Source: Fibrella aestuarina BUZ 2 (GTDB taxonomy: Bacteria > Bacteroidota > Bacteroidia > Cytophagales > Spirosomataceae). Taken from it: DNA of 64,000 nucleotides. Shown here piece by piece: positions 11,301 through 62,321 of the stretch (within the stretch, counting starts at the first letter, position 1; every line of letters starts with the position of its first letter). The DNA lies in contig NC_020054.1 in assembly GCF_000331105.1 (NCBI RefSeq), forward strand, positions 1,477,698 to 1,541,697, given 5' to 3'. A program made the position numbers and the translations under genes. The notes below the pieces were generated by a model. The model made no database searches and had not been told where the DNA came from. It was given only the letters and a program-made list of their open reading frames with translations.

Positions 11301-13442
11301 ATGGCAACTCAAGAAACTTCGTCCAATCGTGTTGCTTCCCTCTTTCAGCCGGCGCTGATTGGGACGGCGATCAAGGACTCATTTATCAAACTCAATCCGG
11401 CCGTTCTGATCAAGAACCCGGTGATGTTTACGGTGGGCGTGGGTACGCTCATCATGCTGATCGTCACGATCTACATTGCGTTATCGGGCGACACGACCCA
11501 GGGTACGTTTGGCTACAACCTCACGATTACGGCTATTCTGCTGCTGACGCTGCTGTTTGCCAACTTCGCCGAGGCCATTGCCGAAGCCCGGGGGAAAGCC
11601 CAGGCCGAGTCGTTGCGGAAAACGCGGCAGGAAACTCCCGCTAAGGTAATCCGGGAGGTGGGTCAGATGACCCTCAACGAGGTGCAGGTGATTTCATCGG
11701 CGCAGTTGCGCAAAGGCGATGTGTTTCTCTGCGAAGCTGGCGACATCATCCCGTCGGATGGCGAGATCATCGAAGGGCTGGCGACCATCGACGAATCGGC
11801 CATCACGGGCGAATCGGCCCCGGTAATCCGGGAGGCGGGCGGTGACAAGTCATCGGTAACGGGTGGCACCAAAGTGCTGTCCGACAAAATCAAGGTGGTG
11901 GTGACGACCCAGCCGGGCGAATCGTTTCTCGACAAAATGATTGCCCTGGTGGAAGGGGCTTCGCGGCAGAAAACGCCCAATGAAATTGCCCTGACGATTT
12001 TGCTGGCGGGCTTTACGCTGGTATTTATCATCGTCTGCGTCACGCTGCAACCCTTTGCCGAATACGCCAACACACCCATTACCATTGCCGCCCTGATTTC
12101 GCTGTTCGTCTGCCTCATCCCGACCACCATCGGCGGGCTGCTGTCGGCCATCGGTATTGCGGGGATGGACCGGGCGCTGCGGGCCAACGTAATCGCCAAA
12201 TCGGGCCGGGCGGTGGAAACGGCGGGCGACATCGACACGCTGCTGCTCGATAAAACGGGCACCATCACCATCGGCAACCGGAAAGCCACGCACTTCTACG
12301 CCGCCCCGGACATCGCCCAACCCGACATGGTGCGGGCCTCGGCGCTGAGTTCGCTGGCCGACGAAACGCCCGAAGGCAAGTCGATTGTGGAGCTGGTTGA
12401 GCGAATGTACAATGTACAATGTACAATGCACAATGGCGAGCTAGCCCTGAAAAAAGCGGATCAGACCATCATACAGTCTTCATTAGCCACTGTGCATTTT
12501 ATCAAGTTTACCGCCGAAACGCGTTCATCGGGTATCGATCTGCCTGTCAACGGCCCGTCAGGTACGTTCCTGCGCATCCGTAAAGGAGCCGTCGATTCGA
12601 TCCGAACCATCGTGACGAAGGCGGGCCATGCCTTTCCGGCAGAAACCGACGCCAAAGCCAGGGAGATTGCGGCTAATGGCGGAACGCCGCTGGTGGTGAC
12701 GGAGAACGAACGCGTAATGGGCGTGGTGGAGCTTCAGGACATTATCAAGCCGGGGATCTCGGAACGCTTCGACCGCCTGCGGAAGATGGGCGTAAAAACG
12801 GTAATGGTAACGGGCGACAACCCGCTGACGGCCAGGTTTATTGCCGAGAAGGCCGGGGTCGATGACTTCATTGCCGAGGCCAAGCCAGAAGACAAGATGC
12901 AGTACATCCGCACCGAGCAAACCGGCGGCAAACTGGTGGCGATGATGGGCGACGGCACCAACGATGCCCCCGCGCTGGCGCAGGCCGACGTGGGCGTGGC
13001 GATGAACTCCGGCACGCAGGCCGCCAAGGAAGCCGGTAACATGGTCGATCTCGACAATGACCCCACCAAGCTGATTGAGGTGGTCGAGATTGGTAAGCAA
13101 CTGCTCATTACGCGGGGGACGCTGACGACGTTCTCCATCGCTAACGATGTCGCCAAGTATTTCGCCATCGTACCGGCGCTGTTCGTGGCGAGCATTCCGG
13201 CGCTGCAACGCATCAACATCATGAATCTGCATAGCCCCGAATCGGCTATTCTGTCGGCGGTGATCTTCAACGCGATCATCATCCCGATGCTGATTCCGCT
13301 GGCCCTGCGTGGGGTCGATTACAAACCGATCGGCGCGTCGGCGCTGCTCCGGCGCAACCTGTTTATCTACGGATTCGGTGGTCTGGTGGCCCCGTTCGTC
13401 GGCATCAAACTGATCGACCTGGTCGTAGGATTATTTGTATAA
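11301..13442 (+). CDS. kdpB: Potassium-transporting P-type ATPase subunit B
   Basis: The catalytic P-type ATPase of the Kdp pump, 713 residues against 682 in E. coli. TGES at 169-172 is the A-domain motif. Asp317 in DKTGT is the phosphorylated residue. ADETPEGKS and the [10 protein letters not shown] and [18 protein letters not shown] motifs mark the N and P domains. ATG 11301 gives MATQETS and lies just after an inverted repeat. The extra length is partly explained by residues about 369-400, where the gene reads through a copy of the heptad repeat found in nearby intergenic gaps. That segment falls in the nucleotide-binding domain between SIVEL and [12 protein letters not shown]. The frame is intact, so the pump is probably functional. 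Confidence 0.96.
12405..12498. repeat. Heptad inverted repeat inside the kdpB coding sequence
   Basis: ATGTACA occurs three times in perfect tandem at 12405-12425, followed by variant units ATGCACA and ATGGCGA. Positions 12425-12437 pair with 12486-12498 at 12 of 13 positions in reverse complement. The same words make up the intergenic elements near 19421, 27357, 27751, 28343, 33565 and 35731. Here the element is read in frame as part of KdpB. Confidence 0.8.
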
Positions 13443-18518: not shown

Positions 18519-19418
18519 ATGAAACCTACTCTCTTGATTCTGGCCGCTGGTATGGGCAGCCGCTACGGGGGCATTAAGCAACTCGACCAGTTTGGGCCAC
18601 ACGGCGAAACCATTATCGATTATTCGCTTTTCGACGCCATCCGGGCCGGTTTCGGCAAGGTGGTGTTCATCATCCGGCAGGAATTACAGGCCGATTTTGA
18701 AGCGCTTTTCCTACCCAAACTACAGGGAAAGATTGAGGTTGACTTTGCCATTCAGGCCCTGTTTTCGTACGTACCCGCCGACCTCGGCCCGGTGCAGCGC
18801 ACCAAACCCTGGGGCACGGGCCACGCCATGTTGTGCGCCCAGAAACAAACGCAAACACCGTTTGCCGTCATCAACGCCGACGATTTTTACGGGCAGGAGG
18901 CCTTCCAGGTAATGGCCGACTTCCTGACGACTGATACCGATGATTCGCGCCACGCGATGGTTGGTTACGAAGTAAAAAACACGCTGTCGGAGTTTGGCTC
19001 CGTGTCGCGCGGGGTGTGCGCCACCGACGACCACAACAACCTGACGTCGGTGATCGAACGGACGAAGATTTACGAGAAAGAGGGCACTATCGTCTACGAA
19101 GAAGCGGATGGCCTCACGCCGCTCGCGCCCGAAACGCCCGTGTCGATGAACTTCTGGGGCTTCAAACCGAGCGTATTTCCCAGCGTACAGGCGCAGTTTG
19201 AGACCTACGCCCGCGCCAATTTCGACGTACCCAAGGCCGAATTCTACATTCCCACGATCGTGACGCAGCTTATCCAGACGGGCGAAGGCACCTGCCGGGT
19301 ATTCCGCAGCCAGTCGGAGTGGTTCGGCGTCACGTACCCTGAAGACAAACCCACGGTGATGAAGTCGTTCAAGCGCCTCCACGCCGACGGCAAGTACCCC
19401 GATAGCCTGTGGGGGTAA
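18519..19418 (+). CDS. Sugar-nucleotidyltransferase-fold protein
   Basis: A 299-residue protein with the NTP-transferase Rossmann-like fold. The nucleotide-binding signature LAAGMGSRYGGIKQL starts at residue 7, followed by WGTGHAML (about 90-97) and VINADDFYG, with the metal-binding aspartates typical of this family. The C-terminal 100 residues contain SMNFWGFKPSVF and KPTVMKSFKRLHADGKYP. Substrate is uncertain; relatives activate sugar-1-phosphates or other phosphates with NTPs. It stands between the kdp kinase and a small secreted protein. No operon partner reveals the pathway. Confidence 0.75.
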   Translation: MKPTLLILAAGMGSRYGGIKQLDQFGPHGETIIDYSLFDAIRAGFGKVVFIIRQELQADFEALFLPKLQGKIEVDFAIQALFSYVPADLGPVQRTKPWGTGHAMLCAQKQTQTPFAVINADDFYGQEAFQVMADFLTTDTDDSRHAMVGYEVKNTLSEFGSVSRGVCATDDHNNLTSVIERTKIYEKEGTIVYEEADGLTPLAPETPVSMNFWGFKPSVFPSVQAQFETYARANFDVPKAEFYIPTIVTQLIQTGEGTCRVFRSQSEWFGVTYPEDKPTVMKSFKRLHADGKYPDSLWG

Positions 19419-19420
19419 TG

Positions 19421-19514
19421 AATGCACGATGCACGATGTACAATGGGGTGCGTAGGTCGGTAGCTAGCCGTTTACGAACACCCATTGTGCATCGTGCATT
19501 GTCCACTGTACATT
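19421..19514. repeat. Heptad inverted repeat, RATGYAC family
   Basis: The left arm (19421-19450) is a run of 7-bp units such as AATGCAC and GATGCAC. The right arm (19479-19514) is the reverse complement with units such as CATTGTG and CATCGTG. The right arm carries about one extra 7-bp unit compared with the left. It begins two bases after the TAA of the preceding gene. Confidence 0.85.
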
Positions 19515-20013: not shown

Positions 20014-20114
20014 AGGCGCGACGAATGATAAATGATGCGTAGGCTAACGCGCCTTGACTCTGGCGACTGCCTGCTTATCGTTTACCACTCAGCGTTCATC
20101 ACTACCTTTACTTC
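20014..20114. repeat. Heptad element filling the gap before the FAD/Fe-S dehydrogenase
   Basis: The right half (20073-20114) is six consecutive 7-bp units of loose consensus GTTYAYC (for example GTTTACC, GTTCATC), and the last unit touches ATG 20115. The left side (about 20022-20042) has GATRAAT-like units in the opposite sense. AAGGCGCG and CGCGCCTT form an internal 8-bp stem. The element occupies the whole intergenic gap. Confidence 0.6.
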
Positions 20115-26029: not shown

Positions 26030-27350
<1,321 letters not shown>

Positions 27351-27356
27351 TAAACA

Positions 27357-27435
27357 ATGAATGATGTACAATGCACAATGACTGCGTTGGCTTGGCTTCA
27401 ACCTCATCGTACATTGTGCATTGTACATCGTCCAT
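27357..27435. repeat. Heptad inverted repeat between eno and the ftsB-like gene
   Basis: Arms 27357-27380 and 27412-27435 match at 22 of 24 positions in reverse complement. The units are of the RATGNAY type (AATGCAC and similar). The right arm ends 10 bases before the next ATG. Confidence 0.9.
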
Positions 27436-27445
27436 TCCCTACTCC

Positions 27446-27748
27446 ATGAACCTCCCTCGTCGCCACCGCTTTTATTGGTTCACGGGCCTCGGCTTTGTGG
27501 CCTGGATGCTGTTTTTTGATGCCAACGACCTGCGCTCGCAGTTGCGTAACTGGTGGAAACTGCGCGAGCTGGAAGGCGAAAAGACCTTTTATCAGGAACA
27601 GATCGAAGCCGTGAAAGCCGAGCGGCATGAAGTGCTGGGCAGTCAGCGGTTGCGCATCAAGTATGCCCGCGAGAAATACCTGATGAAGAAGCGCACCGAA
27701 GACGTCTACGTGCTGGTCGACGAGGCGGGGAAACCCATTGAGAAATGA
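27446..27748 (+). CDS. FtsB/DivIC-family septum formation protein
   Basis: A 100-residue bitopic membrane protein. A short basic N-terminus is followed by one membrane helix (about 10-25, WFTGLGFVAWMLFF). A heptad-rich coiled coil (about 30-75, RSQLRNWWKLRELEGEKTF onward) and a C-terminal domain with KYAREKYLMKKRTEDVYVLV follow. Size and topology are those of the FtsB/DivIC cell-division family, which scaffolds the divisome together with FtsL. The ATG at 27446 is used because upstream in-frame codons lie inside the inverted repeat. A position next to eno is also usual for ftsB-like genes in other bacteria. Confidence 0.85.
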   Translation: MNLPRRHRFYWFTGLGFVAWMLFFDANDLRSQLRNWWKLRELEGEKTFYQEQIEAVKAERHEVLGSQRLRIKYAREKYLMKKRTEDVYVLVDEAGKPIEK

Positions 27749-27750
27749 AT

Positions 27751-27844
27751 AATGTACACTGAATGATGCACAATGCACAATGGCCGTGTTGGTCTATTGA
27801 GTCGTGTCGCTCCATTGTACATTGTGCATTATTCAGTGTACATT
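27751..27844. repeat. Heptad inverted repeat between ftsB-like gene and phosphatase
   Basis: Arms 27751-27783 and 27812-27844 match at 31 of 33 positions in reverse complement. The units are 7 bp long and of the RATGNAY type. The element starts three bases after the stop codon and ends four bases before ATG 27849, so it fills the whole gap. Confidence 0.95.
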
Positions 27845-27848
27845 CAGT

Positions 27849-28337
27849 ATGATCTCCATTCTCTTCGTCTGTTTGGGCAATATTTGTCGGTCGCCGGTGG
27901 CGGAAGGCGTCTTCCGGCAGCAGGTCGATGAGGCGGGTTTGACCGGTGTCATTGAGTGCGATTCAGCAGGTACGTCGTCGTACCATATCGGGCAGCTGCC
28001 CGACATACGTACCCGGCAAAACGCCCTGACCCACGACCTGACGCTCACGCACCGCGCCCGCCGCATGATCGGCGAAGACCTCGCCCGCTTCACCTACATC
28101 ATCACGATGGACGAGGCCAATTACGAGGCCGTCATGAAACTGACGCAGCGCAGCATTGGCCTCACCCACGACGATACCATCTTTTTGCTGCGGGAGTTCG
28201 ACCCCGCCGTCAGTGACCAACCCAACGTACCTGATCCGTATTACGAAGGCCCCGAGGTCTTCGAGGAAGTTTACCAAATCACGCATCGCTGCTGCGGCGA
28301 ACTGCTAACGTACCTGCGGAAGCGACACAACTTGTAG
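27849..28337 (+). CDS. Low-molecular-weight protein-tyrosine phosphatase
   Basis: A 162-residue cytosolic phosphatase. The active-site P-loop CLGNICRS begins at Cys8 with Arg14, and the general acid Asp129 is in VPDPYYEG. ATG 27849 is fixed by the N-terminal position of the P-loop; longer in-frame starts run back through the inverted repeat. Relatives dephosphorylate protein tyrosines or regulate exopolysaccharide kinases. No partner kinase is nearby, so the target is open. Confidence 0.92.
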   Translation: MISILFVCLGNICRSPVAEGVFRQQVDEAGLTGVIECDSAGTSSYHIGQLPDIRTRQNALTHDLTLTHRARRMIGEDLARFTYIITMDEANYEAVMKLTQRSIGLTHDDTIFLLREFDPAVSDQPNVPDPYYEGPEVFEEVYQITHRCCGELLTYLRKRHNL

Positions 28338-28342
28338 AAAGA

Positions 28343-28424
28343 TAATGGATAATGCACGATGGACAATGTACAATGGGCTTGATCGTCTGATCATTATACA
28401 TTGTCCATCGTACACTATCCATTA
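28343..28424. repeat. Heptad inverted repeat between phosphatase and gpmI
   Basis: Arms 28343-28375 and 28392-28424 match at 30 of 33 positions. The 7-bp units include AATGCAC and AATGTAC variants. The loop is short (16 bases) and the right arm ends 12 bases before the gpmI ATG. Confidence 0.95.
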
Positions 28425-28436
28425 CCGCCACTCTTT

Positions 28437-30011
28437 ATGAATAAAAAAGTCATCCTCGTCATTATGGACGGGTGGGGCATGACCACCCAGAACGACCGGT
28501 CGGCGCTGGCGGCGGCAAAGACGCCGTTTGTTACCGAGGCCTGGAGTCGCTATACGCACAGCACGCTGGAGGCATCGGGCCTGAAAGTAGGGCTGCCGGT
28601 GGGGCAGATGGGCAACTCGGAAGTGGGGCACATGAACCTCGGTGCAGGGCGCATCGTCTACCAGGACCTGGTGAAAATCAACCTTGCCGTTGAAGAGCGC
28701 ACGCTCGCTCACGAACCCGTGCTGGCCGAAGCCTTTGCCAGGGCTAAAGCGACGGGCAAAAACGTGCACCTGATTGGGCTGGTATCGGATGGCGGCGTTC
28801 ATGCCCATATCGACCACCTCAAGGGTCTGTTGAGCATCGCGCATGAGCAGGGCCTGATCAACGTATTCGTCCACGCGTTCACCGACGGGCGCGACACCGA
28901 CCCAAAAAGTGGGCTCGGTTACCTGACGGACCTGAAGGCGCACATGAACGGCACGACTGGCCAACTGGCCACAGTGATTGGCCGGTTCTACGCCATGGAC
29001 CGCGACAACCGCTGGGAACGCGTAAAAGTAGCCTATGATGCCATGGTCAACGCCGTGGGGGACCGGGCGCAGGGCGATGGCGTATTCCAAGCCATTCGCG
29101 ACTCCTACGACGCCGGCACGACGGATGAATTCATCACACCCATTGTGCTCGAAAACGCCGATCATACGCCCGTTGCTCAGATCAAAGACGGCGATATTGT
29201 CATCTGTTTTAACTTCCGCACCGACCGGGGCCGCGAAATCACGATTGCGCTGACGCAAAAAGATTTCCCCGAACAGCAGATGCACAAGCTCGACCTCGAT
29301 TACATCACGATGACCAACTACGACTCGGATTTTAAGGGCGTGAAGGTCATTTACGAGAAAGACAACCTGGAAAAAACGCTGGGTGAAGTAGTCGCGGCAG
29401 CGGGCCGGAAACAGATTCGGATTGCCGAAACGGAGAAGTACCCGCACGTGACGTTCTTCTTCTCAGGTGGCCGCGAAGAGCCCTTCATTGGTGAAACCCG
29501 CCTCCTGATTCCATCGCCGAAAGAGACGACCATCGTCAACGAGGAAGGGCAGACCGTCACGATTCCGGTGAAAACCTACGATCAGAAACCGGAGATGTCG
29601 GCTCATGGTATCCGCGACGCCATCGTGGCTGAACTGAAAAAAGGCGAGGTCGATTTTGTGTGCCTCAACTTTGCCAATACCGACATGGTGGGCCATACGG
29701 GCGTGTTTGACGCCGTGGTGAAAGCCGCCGAAACCGTCGACGCCACTACCCGCGACGTGGTAACGACGGGCCTCGAACACGGCTACACCTCGATCATCAT
29801 CGCCGACCACGGTAACGCCGATTATATGATCAACGACGACGGCACGCCCAACACGGCTCACACTACCAGCCTGGTGCCGTGTATTCTGGTGGATAATGAG
29901 TTCCAGCCCGCGCTCAAAGACGGTAAGCTGGGTGATATCGCCCCCACCGTGCTGGCACTGATGGGCATCCCCCAGCCTACCGAAATGACGGGTGAAAGTC
30001 TGCTGGCCTAG
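28437..30011 (+). CDS. gpmI: 2,3-bisphosphoglycerate-independent phosphoglycerate mutase
   Basis: A 524-residue manganese-dependent mutase of the alkaline phosphatase superfamily, interconverting 3- and 2-phosphoglycerate. Asp11 in MDGWG and Ser61 in GNSEVGHMNLGAGR are the metal ligand and the phosphorylated serine. RFYAMDRDNRWERV, NFRTDRGREIT, the NFANTDMVGHTG motif and IADHGNADYM complete the family pattern. ATG 28437 gives the standard MNKKVILVIMDGWG start. It is a glycolytic neighbour of eno and ends with a 20-bp perfect hairpin terminator. Confidence 0.96.
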   Translation: MNKKVILVIMDGWGMTTQNDRSALAAAKTPFVTEAWSRYTHSTLEASGLKVGLPVGQMGNSEVGHMNLGAGRIVYQDLVKINLAVEERTLAHEPVLAEAFARAKATGKNVHLIGLVSDGGVHAHIDHLKGLLSIAHEQGLINVFVHAFTDGRDTDPKSGLGYLTDLKAHMNGTTGQLATVIGRFYAMDRDNRWERVKVAYDAMVNAVGDRAQGDGVFQAIRDSYDAGTTDEFITPIVLENADHTPVAQIKDGDIVICFNFRTDRGREITIALTQKDFPEQQMHKLDLDYITMTNYDSDFKGVKVIYEKDNLEKTLGEVVAAAGRKQIRIAETEKYPHVTFFFSGGREEPFIGETRLLIPSPKETTIVNEEGQTVTIPVKTYDQKPEMSAHGIRDAIVAELKKGEVDFVCLNFANTDMVGHTGVFDAVVKAAETVDATTRDVVTTGLEHGYTSIIIADHGNADYMINDDGTPNTAHTTSLVPCILVDNEFQPALKDGKLGDIAPTVLALMGIPQPTEMTGESLLA

Positions 30012-33564: not shown

Positions 33565-33669
33565 AATGTACAATGAACGATGTACGATGTACAATGGGGC
33601 GAACGGCGTAGCGCTTGCCTGCTAATGCACCGCGCCTCATCGTACATCGTTCCTTATCCATTGTACATT
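33565..33669. repeat. Heptad inverted repeat upstream of cysM
   Basis: Left arm 33565-33589 and right arm 33638-33669 are reverse complements except that the right arm carries one extra 7-base block. Units are of the RATGNAC type. The right arm ends three bases before ATG 33673. Confidence 0.9.
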
Positions 33670-34689: not shown

Positions 34690-35733
34690 ATGTACAAACG
34701 CTTGCTGTTGCCGCTCCTGTTTCGGTTCGATGCGGAGAAGGTCCACTATTTCGCCACGTCGACGCTTCAGGTTGCGCATAAGATTCCCGGTGTAGCGGCG
34801 CTGCTGCGCTGGCTGTTTACCTACCGGCATCCCAGCCTCGAACGCACGGTATTTGGCCTGACGTTTCCTAACCCGGTGGGGCTGGCGGCGGGCTTCGACA
34901 AAAACGGCGAGTGGGTCGAAGAACTGAGCAATCTGGGCTTTGGCTTTATTGAGATTGGCACCGTAACGCCCCGTCCGCAACCCGGCAACGATAAGCCGCG
35001 GCTGTTTCGCCTCAAGGCCGACAGTGGGTTGATCAACCGGATGGGCTTCAACAACAAAGGCGCTGGCCCGGCGGCGGGTCGGTTGCAGTTTCATCGGCAA
35101 CGTACCCAGAACCCACGCGTGCTGATCGGCGGTAACATCGGCAAGAACAAAGACACGCCTAACGAAGAAGCGCTCACCGACTACCTGCTGTGTTTCCGTG
35201 ACCTGTTCGATGCCGTCGATTATTTCGTCGTCAACGTATCGTCGCCCAACACGCCGGGTTTGCGGGCGTTGCAGGAAAAAGAACCGCTGAAAGCAATTCT
35301 GGGTCGGTTGCAGGGCGAGAACAGCCTGAAAAACAAGCCGAAACCAATCTTGCTCAAAATTGCCCCCGACCTGGCGGATAGTCAGCTCGACGACATCATC
35401 GAGATTGTTCGGGAAACGGGGATTGCGGGCGTGATCGCGACCAACACGACCATCAGCCGCGACGGGCTACGTACCCCGGCCGATGCCGTAACGAAGATGG
35501 GGGCGGGCGGCGTCAGTGGTAAACCCGTTCAGGTACGTTCCACCGAGGTGATTCGCTACCTGCACACTCAGTCAAACGGGGCATTCCCGATTATCGGGGT
35601 AGGGGGCATTCAGACCGCCGCCGATGCCAAAGAAAAACTCGACGCCGGGGCCACGCTCGTGCAGGTCTACACCGGCTTCATCTACGAAGGCCCCGCCCTG
35701 GCCAGCAAGATCTGCCGGGGGTTAGTACAATGA
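34690..35733 (+). CDS. pyrD: Dihydroorotate dehydrogenase, class 2 (quinone-linked)
   Basis: A 347-residue FMN enzyme oxidising dihydroorotate to orotate in pyrimidine synthesis, with electrons passed to quinone at the inner membrane. The N-terminal 50 residues form the amphipathic membrane-association helices of class 2. [47 protein letters not shown] (catalytic serine about 184-185), ATNTT and GVGGI complete the family set. ATG 34690 is chosen over GTG 34684 because of the promoter box. The TGA stop is inside the left arm of the following inverted repeat. Confidence 0.95.
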
Positions 35734-35820
35734 ATAATGGACAATGCACGATGTATAATGGGCTGTAAAGCGTTTACTCTAGCGCCCGCCCATTATACAT
35801 CGTGCATTATCCATTATTCA
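35731..35820. repeat. Heptad inverted repeat between convergent pyrD and VWA gene
   Basis: Arms 35731-35763 and 35788-35820 match at 32 of 33 positions, the best pair in the window. The left arm starts with the pyrD stop codon and the right arm ends one base before the stop of the VWA gene. Units are 7 bp long. Here both flanking genes end, so the element is not tied only to translation starts. Confidence 0.95.
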
Positions 35821-35821
35821 T

Positions 35822-36925
35822 TCACTTGATATTCTTCCGCCGGTTGCGCTGGAAATCCTCGAACATCATGTTGCCGAGGCCCTGCAAGCCACTGTAATAG
35901 GCGCGGCCGTTGTTGACCTTCGTAAATTCCTGCACAAACTGCTTCAGATACGGGTCAGTGGCGATCATGAACGTCGTGACGGGGATGTCGAGGCGGCGGC
36001 ACTGAGCGGCCAGCGTAAGGGTTTTGCTCACCACTTTCCGGTCGAGGCCAAACGAGTTTTTATAGTACCGGATGCCTTCCTTCAGACAGGTCGGTTTACC
36101 ATCGGTAATCATAAAAATCTGCTTGTTTTTGTTCTTGCGGCGGCGCAGCAAATCCATCGCCAGTTCGAGGCCAGCTACCGTGTTGGTGTGGTACGGGCCC
36201 ACTTCCAGATAGGGTAGGTCTTTAGCCTGAATCTGCCAGGCATCGTTGCCAAACACCACAATGTCGAGCGTGTCTTTGGGGTACTTCTGTTTGATCAGCT
36301 CCACCAGCGCCAGCGCTACTTTTTTAGCGGGCGTAATCCGGTCTTCGCCATACAGAATCATCGAGTGGCTGATGTCGATCATCAGCACCGTGCTCGTCTG
36401 GGTTTTCTGCTCTTTTTCAGTTACTTCCAGGTCTCGCTCCATCAGCGTGAATTCCTCCACGCCGCTGTTGATCTGCGCATTTTTGATCGACTCGGTCATC
36501 GAAATCTGTTCGAGCGTGTCGCCAAACTGGTAGGTACGCAGGTCGCTGCTCAGCTCATCGCCCGAGCCGGTGTAGGGCGTGTTGTGGTTGCCGCCTGATT
36601 TTGAGCGTTTCAGCTTGCCGAAAATCTCGTCGAGGGCCGAGCGCCGGATCGTCTGTTCGGTTTTTGGCGTAATCGAAATTTTACCTTCCTGATTCTCTTC
36701 CGTCAGATATCCTTTTTCTTTTAGCTCATCGAAAAAGTTGCCCATCCCATACTGATCGTCGGTGAGGCTATACTGCCGGTCGAGCTGATTCATCCAGGCC
36801 ATTGCCTGCTCCACATCGCCCGACGTAATGAGCAGCAACTGCTGAAAAATGTTGAGCAGCTGATCAAATTTGCTGCCTCCCTTCTGTTCGGGAGGCACAA
36901 ACTGAGAAAAGTTAAAGCCTTTCAT
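35822..36925 (-). CDS. VWA-domain protein
   Basis: A 367-residue cytosolic protein. The C-terminal von Willebrand factor A domain (about 178-365) contains the metal-ion-dependent adhesion motif Asp184-x-Ser186-x-Ser188 in DISHSM, and FMITDGKPTC further on. The N-terminal half is helical and charged, without known motifs except a winged-helix-like stretch. No signal peptide or membrane span is seen. Such proteins usually work with a MoxR-type AAA+ ATPase, but none is in this window. ATG 36925 gives MKGFNFSQFVPPEQ, the typical start of this Bacteroidota group. Confidence 0.82.
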   Translation of the reverse strand: MKGFNFSQFVPPEQKGGSKFDQLLNIFQQLLLITSGDVEQAMAWMNQLDRQYSLTDDQYGMGNFFDELKEKGYLTEENQEGKISITPKTEQTIRRSALDEIFGKLKRSKSGGNHNTPYTGSGDELSSDLRTYQFGDTLEQISMTESIKNAQINSGVEEFTLMERDLEVTEKEQKTQTSTVLMIDISHSMILYGEDRITPAKKVALALVELIKQKYPKDTLDIVVFGNDAWQIQAKDLPYLEVGPYHTNTVAGLELAMDLLRRRKNKNKQIFMITDGKPTCLKEGIRYYKNSFGLDRKVVSKTLTLAAQCRRLDIPVTTFMIATDPYLKQFVQEFTKVNNGRAYYSGLQGLGNMMFEDFQRNRRKNIK

Positions 36926-36953: not shown

Positions 36954-37033
36954 GTTTGACGTTGTGCTACAGACAAACACGTAACAACAACCCGAGGGAA
37001 AACGTCAAACTGCAAACGTTAAACCTCAAACTA
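36954..37033. repeat. Heptad element upstream of the VWA and DHH genes
   Basis: GTTTGACGTT (36954-36963) pairs perfectly with 37001-37010. Positions 36999-37033 are five consecutive 7-bp units of consensus YAAACNN (for example CAAACTG, CAAACGT). It lies between two divergent start codons. Confidence 0.7.
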
Positions 37034-39132: not shown

Positions 39133-39270
39133 AAGTTCAACCGTTCAACGTTTAAGGTGTAAAGTGGCTCCTGTAGAAAAGGAACCACTTGCCAGTAGAC
39201 ATTGAACCGCAGCGCACCGCCTGATCCGGTTGGGTCAGGCGGTGTATCGCTTTACACTTTGGACTTAAAC
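39133..39270. repeat. Heptad element between the two FKBP genes, with an internal hairpin
   Basis: Five 7-bp units of the AANGTTN type run from 39133 to 39167; three units beginning CTT occupy 39250-39270. The two sides pair through GTTTAAG and TGTAAAG, with one extra unit on the right. An independent perfect 10-bp stem, CACCGCCTGA (39215-39224) with 39235-39244, lies inside. The element ends 7 bases before the next start. Confidence 0.65.
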
Positions 39271-54329: not shown

Positions 54330-54419
54330 ATGCCTTGCGGTAAAAAACGGAAGCGGCACAAGATCGCCACTCACAAGCGGAAAAAACGGCTCAGAAAGAA
54401 TCGGCACAAGAAGAAATAG
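54330..54419 (+). CDS. 29-residue basic COX24/AURKAIP1-like protein, putative ribosomal
   Basis: A 29-codon ORF: MPCGKKRKRHKIATHKRKKR followed by a basic end rich in Arg, Asn and Lys. It matches the short, extremely basic protein found upstream of rng in Bacteroidota and related to the C-terminal domain of mitochondrial COX24/AURKAIP1 (mS38). A ribosomal or rRNA-binding role is likely from family knowledge. It is easily missed because of its length. It is followed by a heptad element and then rng. Confidence 0.85.
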   Translation: MPCGKKRKRHKIATHKRKKRLRKNRHKKK

Positions 54420-54420
54420 T

Positions 54421-54510
54421 GATGAGTGATGAACGGTGGACGGTGAGTTTGCTTACGCTAGCGTAACCGCAGCAGCCCGCACACTTACCGATCAGCACTC
54501 ATCACTCACC
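54421..54510. repeat. Heptad inverted repeat before rng
   Basis: Left units are GATGAGT, GATGAAC and two GGTG-starting 7-mers (54421-54448). GATGAGTGATGA (54421-54432) pairs with 54499-54510 at 11 of 12 positions. It begins one base after the stop of the COX24-like gene. Confidence 0.7.
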
Positions 54511-62224: not shown

Positions 62225-62321
62225 GTTTGCCGTTTGGCCTTTTTGGGCAAGCGTTGTTTCCCGGAAAGTTAGCTGACTGGTTCAGGCAGTAACGCCCACC
62301 GAGAAACGCCAAACGACAAAC
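62225..62321. repeat. Heptad inverted repeat in the glyA leader
   Basis: GTTTGCCGTTTGGC (62225-62238) pairs with 62308-62321 at 13 of 14 positions. The right side consists of AAAC-starting 7-bp units such as AAACGAC. It ends 11 bases before ATG 62333, so it lies within the transcribed leader if the upstream promoter box is used. Confidence 0.75.

Follow-up and report, generated by a model that had tools for sequence, protein, structure and literature searches.

Intergenic hairpins with arms of degenerate heptamer arrays in Fibrella aestuarina and its relatives: retained slots and exchanged word families

The STRR sequences of cyanobacteria are direct repeats of heptamers, and Rickettsia palindromic elements, which are palindromic repeats lying in frame inside proteins, form families of fixed sequence that are not heptamer arrays. 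Intergenic TAACTGA arrays, also composed of tandem 7-nt units, have been reported in five Bacteroidetes too; the sections of that report used here give 169 direct sets and one inverted set in one genome, and relatives that can be without the array in the same gap (PMC4679880). REP, BIME and REPIN sequences are multicopy short extragenic palindromes that lie between or after genes, and the REP definition, in the excerpt available, includes a common consensus motif (PMC12306157). Within the portions covered of two further papers, tandem and inverted repeats occur together in a Bacteroidota genome as a MITE with minisatellite in Porphyromonas gingivalis (PMC4596501), and template-switch mutations that create and repair hairpins are described for RNA genes and microRNAs (PMC8794818). 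Among the matches listed in a search of open-licence papers, we found no description of the elements reported below.

Here we analyse a 64,000-nt stretch of the Fibrella aestuarina BUZ 2 genome (NC_020054.1, positions 1,477,698 to 1,541,697; hereafter the window). Four consecutive forward-strand genes encode enolase (eno, 26082..27350; Pfam PF00113/PF03952), a small protein that we take to be FtsB-like (27446..27748; no Pfam family), a low molecular weight phosphatase (27849..28337; PF01451) and the BPG-independent phosphoglycerate mutase GpmI (28437..30011; PF06415/PF01676); the three with Pfam matches serve below as anchors for orthologous slots. By its phosphatase gene the host groups with Fibrella, the nearest named match found being that of Fibrella forsythiae at 91% identity, in a comparison that may have excluded the host's own record. 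Each of the three gaps between these genes is filled by one hairpin, with no strand assigned: 27356..27436 (arms 27356-27380 / 27412-27436 of 25 nt, 92% complementary, loop of 31 nt), 27751..27844 (arms 27751-27783 / 27812-27844 of 33 nt, 94%) and 28343..28424 (arms 28343-28375 / 28392-28424 of 33 nt, 91%). These values agree with the arms of 24-33 bp matching at 90% or better that the original prediction had read from the letters. Lag-7 periodicity of the arms is 0.65-0.77, and the predicted RNA folds have z values of -8.3, -8.5 and -6.8, respectively.

Other hairpins of the RATGNAY family had been expected near 19421-19514, 33565-33669 and 35731-35820, and we located them, again without strand, at 19429..19499 (starting 10 nt past the stop codon of a gene that ends at 19418), 33565..33669 (arms 33565-33601 / 33633-33669; its gap was classed as divergent) and 35729..35822, which lies between convergent genes, overlaps both stop codons and has the strongest fold among six tried (z -14.2). 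The same layout with different units, foreseen at 54421-54510 and 62225-62321, was recovered as an AGTGATG-type hairpin with 20-nt arms at 54418..54506 and a GTTTGNC-type hairpin with 18-nt arms at 62225..62321, both unstranded. An inverted-repeat finder gave 13 inverted repeats in the window, seven of them with lag-7 arms; the element at 62225-62321, found at a lower threshold, is the eighth. Three further places in the prediction did not hold up at the thresholds used: 20073-20114 and 36999-37033 contain no inverted repeat, and 39133-39270 contains only an inner 10-nt GC hairpin.

The signal extends well beyond the window. With at most one mismatch, AATGYACAATGYACAATG occurs at 80 + 79 places in the 6.94 Mb host genome, overlapping places counted, and the reversed pattern at none. 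A 464-kb sample of host gaps (the window plus 20 stretches of its own genome) contained 251 gaps of 60-600 nt as delimited by a simple custom gene finder, whose uncertain start codons inflate the distance to the next start; inverted repeats scoring at least 14 were present in 73 of these gaps and in none of the 251 after one dinucleotide shuffle each, and 19 held heptameric hairpins. Among 344 pooled hairpin arms of at least 18 nt, 7 was the best lag in 111 compared with 9.4 in shuffled arms, the excess over shuffled controls that the original prediction called for, here in the sampled part of the genome. Lag 8 was weakly raised (21 vs 11.1), lags 4, 5 and 10 were slightly above the null (9/6.8, 7/4.9 and 14/12.2), and lags 6, 9, 11 and 12 were below it. 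A chance origin is ruled out by the shuffles of gaps and arms, by those of the eno-ftsB slot described below (mean 0.05 vs 40 of 48 species) and by the fold z values; the hairpins are real and more than chance provides.

The gaps in 21 data sets (the host genome and 20 others, as partial stretches with custom gene calls) comprised 752 co-directional, 136 convergent and 202 divergent ones, and heptamer hairpins occupied 77, 17 and 6 of these, respectively. In co-directional gaps they start a median of 5 nt past the stop codon (quartiles 2-14). The elements thus sit right after stop codons and are rare in divergent gaps.

What defines the main family is a word grammar rather than a fixed sequence. 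In 127 units from the left arms of 44 elements, positions 2-4 of RATGNAY are near-fixed (117, 120 and 122 units), position 1 is A or G, position 6 is A in 103, position 7 is mostly C or T (62 and 52) and position 5 is near random (T49 A28 C25 G25), so that the description of the arms as runs of degenerate RATGNAY units is borne out as a near-fixed core with one almost random position. Departures are far from uniform across word positions (p 4e-36) and are uneven also in the GTTTGTG and GTTTACG families (p 1e-4 and 1.5e-7). The GTTCAAG, GGGCATA, GGAGCAT and GAGTTAA families, with 17-24 units each, have a similar pattern; the AGTGATG family (42 units) has little contrast between positions. Because neutral decay of a slippage array would be expected to spread changes evenly, some constraint appears to act on the core in the main families. 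The grouping used gives eight word families in all, with nine elements unplaced.

The arms are also polar and mirrored. Located independently of complementarity, 99 RATG arrays formed 41 base-to-loop pairs, not all independent since some loci are close relatives; none had the opposite layout, none paired on the same strand and 17 arrays were unpaired, the arms being polar in all 41 pairs. STRR and, in the sections used, TAACTGA repeats are direct arrays, whereas here tandem 7-nt units stand in paired inverted arms mirrored unit for unit, 82 of the 99 arrays belonging to the 41 inverted pairs. At the free position 5, both arms of an element agree in 0.82 of 107 units, compared with 0.49 when arms from different elements are set in their best register (maximum 0.58 in 20 rounds), and every compared free position is mirrored in 17 of 41 elements. 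Left arms are G-rich: G exceeds C in 99 of 113 co-directional heptamer elements and falls below it in nine, the corresponding figures being 13 and 3 of 17 in convergent and 5 and 1 of 6 in divergent gaps.

One array lies inside a gene. The original prediction placed an element of this kind in kdpB, where an in-frame RATGNAY array on the forward strand (12404..12435) is intact as a left arm only: across 12404-12505, lag-7 periodicity is 0.69 in the left array and 0.34 in the degenerate right arm, and the fold is no better than shuffles (z -0.20). A comparison with five relatives, made on proteins rather than DNA, suggests a fuller form elsewhere, as KdpB of S. koreense, S. linguale and another relative can be read as both arms of an in-frame 7-nt hairpin. 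Back-translated stretches of the relatives fit period 7 at 0.69-0.96, control peptides at 0.50-0.58. KdpB of Fibrella sp. WM1, 96% identical, is without the array stretch and is shorter there. KdpB of the window and of its Spirosoma relatives fits in-frame arrays, a placement that may parallel that of the Rickettsia palindromic elements, which lie in frame inside proteins but are of fixed sequence and not heptameric.

Within a genome the elements draw on common words. Sharing of 6-mers is 0.058 within and 0.019 between genomes (0 of 2000 permutations), so that the units are not locus-specific as originally proposed, although unit order and loop are. Within the host's genus, counts of triple RATGNAY arrays reach 516, 438 and 207 in three genomes but 7 and 3 in two more. 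Of 35 genomes, 24 have such arrays and the four from outside the clade lack them; the reversed control gave none in any of the 35. The elements do not look like fresh copies. Fifteen of 42 heptamer elements of the host have a second match over at least 70% of their length, at only about 68-84% identity, and 864 kb contained no full-length copy above about 84% over 70% of the length. When compared among 38 heptamer elements, loops have no more similarity to each other than shuffled loops do (mean best local score 9.7 vs 9.1, highest score 13 vs 15). In one Spirosoma, no near-identical copy of its two slot hairpins was present in 13 regions that carry GGAGCNN arrays, the longest match being 78 nt at 72%.

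These elements share with REP and REPIN sequences that they are extragenic, palindromic and present in many copies; they differ in having, in place of a consensus palindrome with highly similar copies, a degenerate 7-nt grammar in eight families with unshared loops and 68-84% matches, and two of the ten carriers searched, the host and G324, have no match to the associated Y1 (RAYT) transposase. The full-length copies with common interior and ends that mark a MITE were not found among the heptamer elements of the 864 kb, and in P. gingivalis, in the part of that report covered, the minisatellite lies inside the MITE (PMC4596501), whereas here the arms themselves are arrays. The possibility raised with the original prediction, that all are copies of one conventional MITE or REP family of fixed sequence, is contradicted by the several families and unshared loops and is ruled out when the low identity of matches, the lack of near-identical copies and the unrelated families at single slots are added.

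The host genome also carries a second hairpin class, of GTCATT 10-mers (e.g. L121 near 14101 and 19561, L072 near 170), whose copies can be nearly full length (e.g. 94% over 96 nt) and in which some loops are common to copies; this looks like a more conventional dispersed repeat. A hairpin tip, GGCTGACGC-N10..13-GCGTCAGCC, has 33 exact copies in the host genome, whose loops are all distinct, some at most three bases apart. Several of these tips lie in convergent gaps, some of them on top of heptamer stems.

Within the sample taken, heptamer hairpins mark one clade, Spirosoma/Fibrella/Fibrisoma/Rudanella. We counted 63 lag-7 and 31 lag-8 hairpins in its 47 loci (899 kb). Outside it, 27 genomes from the family, order and phylum, sampled at one or two stretches each (40 loci, 0.79 Mb), yielded two hairpins with lag 8 and a single weak one with lag 7, and further outgroup loci no lag-7 hairpin. 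Occurrence across the phylum is not supported by this sample. The proposed search for an associated enzyme by co-occurrence, covering Y1 transposase, reverse transcriptase and SbcD in 20 genomes with 10 carriers, gave no candidate. Matches to a Y1 transposase were absent from the host and G324 and present in the other eight carriers, reverse transcriptase (PF00078) had no match in seven of ten, and SbcD above the family cut-off was missing from the host, G332 and G324 and present in the other seven. A RAYT-type transposase, a reverse transcriptase or loss of SbcD is accordingly rejected as the common cause, none tracking presence of the elements; palindrome handling may differ in the three genomes without an SbcD match. 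One locus, L013 (NZ_JAPQNS010000012.1), bears the record title Flavobacterium sp. SUN052. This title is probably wrong, since the genes resemble those of Rudanella and Spirosoma (phosphatase identity 72%; four-fold identity 0.51 to L020).

The orthologous slots, compared in 48 species (the window and 47 other loci), retain structure while exchanging words. The eno-ftsB gap has an inverted repeat of at least 13 nt in 40 of 48 species, compared with a mean of 0.05 and a maximum of 1 of 48 in shuffles; 30 of these hairpins are heptameric and 13 eno-ftsB hairpins are not 7-periodic. Eight species lack arms of 13 nt and five lack arms of 11 nt. The hairpins of this one slot belong to several unrelated word families. 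Conservation of structure at a place, which usually goes together with conservation of sequence, is here separated from it. Along the row, the other co-directional slots are occupied in 23/48 (19 heptameric), 6/43 (1 heptameric, 5 octameric), 10/23 (0 heptameric), 0/21 and 0/12 species, a strongly heterogeneous occupancy (chi2 p 2.7e-14), and the sole divergent slot in 0/23. Lag 7 reaches z 32.8 and 31.7 at the first two slots, with harmonics at 14 and 21 in eno-ftsB, and lag 8 reaches z 31.9 at the gpmI slot. Just upstream of the gpmI start codon, many Spirosoma have an octamer array (TTTCACTC)n, e.g. L018 10565-10630, usually without a left arm. Very long non-heptamer hairpins also occur in the eno-ftsB gap, with 48-nt arms of GGTGTCGGGTT type in L173, with 42-nt arms in G039/L030, and in L175.

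Four-fold site identity between the host and its congeners is 0.49-0.57, near saturation, and we therefore examined closer species pairs. Unrelated eno-ftsB hairpins occur in L018/L168, L027/L173, L022/L179 and L017/L019 (four-fold identity 0.82, 0.79, 0.69 and 0.71). In the first two pairs identity is 92-99% in the 100-nt coding windows flanking the replaced gap and 83-99% over most of the remaining row, other gaps excepted. The eno-ftsB gap of L016/L185 is 98% identical and the following gap is replaced; L027/L173 is the reverse, with the eno-ftsB gap replaced and the following gap kept. In L011/L012 a stretch near the hairpin tip is common to both species, one having a 7-nt and the other an 8-nt family. 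Conserved hairpin gaps need no special cause, as gaps without hairpins are mostly conserved above four-fold sites. Hairpin gaps are in fact the less conserved (mean difference -0.11, p 1e-4, 48 vs 79 gaps), and among 24 with identity below 0.75 a hairpin was detected in both species in only 12, so one hairpin is not always exchanged for another. The idea of a repeat system whose sequence turns over as its unit length and symmetry persist is thus supported in part, by the 7-nt periodicity kept across the 48 species, by families swapped, in some cases between close sisters, and by mirrored changes between arms.

Mirrored changes were counted in 42 orthologous hairpins aligned at an identity of at least 0.70, the hairpin being called in one species of each pair. 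Nineteen paired changes that kept pairing were observed against 1.73 expected from the overall change rate, an 11-fold excess, together with eight double changes without both paired and 78 one-sided changes; 7.9% of arm sites and 121/574 loop sites had changed. As 13 of the 19 fell in non-heptamer and six in heptamer hairpins, the correlation between arms is a property of the clade's hairpins at large. Mirrored changes in both arms are expected from template switching, and selection could give the same. The template-switch account likewise features mirrored multi-base changes, perfect stems and asymmetric stem composition; the parts covered do not contain the word 'tandem' and do not describe family swapping (PMC8794818). 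Among arm mismatches in co-directional gaps there was no clear excess of G-U over A-C (heptamer 51 vs 46, all 134 vs 109), in keeping with pairing maintained on the DNA itself. Were RNA selection alone responsible for the pairing, a clear G-U excess would be expected; none was detected, in a test whose power is unproven, a control of 35 T-tailed hairpins being uninformative in also having no excess (10 vs 8). No intermediate of arm rewriting was caught among the species compared, the best cases being unpolarised by an outgroup.

We suggest, with about even confidence, that these are hairpin slots with a putative function, renewed by DNA-level copying between arms and 7-nt slippage, whose word families spread within genomes. 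A hairpin may be favoured at some slots, such as the gap between enolase and the small gene. Enolase is highly expressed, and the eno-ftsB hairpin is probably an intercistronic RNA hairpin, putatively stepping down or protecting transcripts. The DNA would be kept palindromic by template switching between arms during replication, with slippage by 7 nt assisting by offering several registers, and a word family could spread through a genome by short ectopic copying that overwrites existing hairpins, through putative machinery. Several observations count against this reading: the near-fixed word positions exceed what slippage and copying alone explain, the consistent polarity of the arms is not accounted for, most of the mirrored changes lie in non-heptamer hairpins, low-identity hairpin gaps often have a hairpin in one species only, and some species have no eno-ftsB hairpin or one that is not 7-periodic. 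A bolder version, which we consider doubtful, is a self-renewing system in which pairing, polarity and unit length but not sequence are inherited, slots after genes stay occupied, and arms are rewritten from a genome-wide 7-nt grammar by copying or word-adding machinery dedicated to the clade.

The main rival to slot renewal is transposition of small palindromes, which is possible, if rather unlikely: non-autonomous MITE-, REP- or RPE-like elements, moved by a putative transposase, would insert after genes, decay or be lost, and give way to other families landing in the same gaps, any RNA effect being incidental. The abundance of a single family in certain genomes, at hundreds of copies, with near absence in congeners, the rarity in divergent gaps, the in-frame KdpB arrays in the clade against the shorter stretch in a 96% identical relative, the near full-length copies and partly shared loops of the host 10-mer class and the 15 of 42 heptamer elements with a long second match all suit it; the low identity of those matches, the unalike loops, the 13 regions without near-identical copies, the two of ten carriers without a Y1 transposase and the very uneven occupancy among slots do not. 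That these are functional RNA hairpins of an ordinary kind, acting as terminators or processing sites and under selection on base pairing only, with the 7-nt periodicity a by-product of slippage, seems improbable to us. Placement past stop codons and in convergent gaps, strong predicted folds, compensatory changes and slot conservation would follow from it, but it leaves genome-biased families and near-fixed word positions, unnecessary for a hairpin, without a role; G-U shows no clear excess, no Rfam family matches at gathering score in the window, and the T tract of an intrinsic terminator is missing, with no run of at least four T immediately past the right arms of the three window hairpins checked (27436, 27844 and 28424). 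Least probable is an array of sites for a protein that binds single-stranded DNA or RNA and reads about 4-5 fixed bases per 7 nt, with the inverted layout serving the protein or its loading. It would explain the fixed and free positions of the word (for RATGNAY at p 4e-36), the strict polarity and the octamer arrays upstream of gpmI that lack a left arm, but several unrelated families occur at the same slot and one protein would need to accept them all.

Elements of this kind can escape searches for repeats or RNA families that rely on sequence, as the Rfam result in the window illustrates. Among the dozens of species in the clade, some differ by an entire hairpin while the coding flanks on both sides are clean. 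How long near-perfect stems arise, whether by template switching, slippage, selection or transposition, can therefore be tested directly in bacteria. A possible empty site is the convergent gap near 19227 of L016, where L185 has 23 nt.
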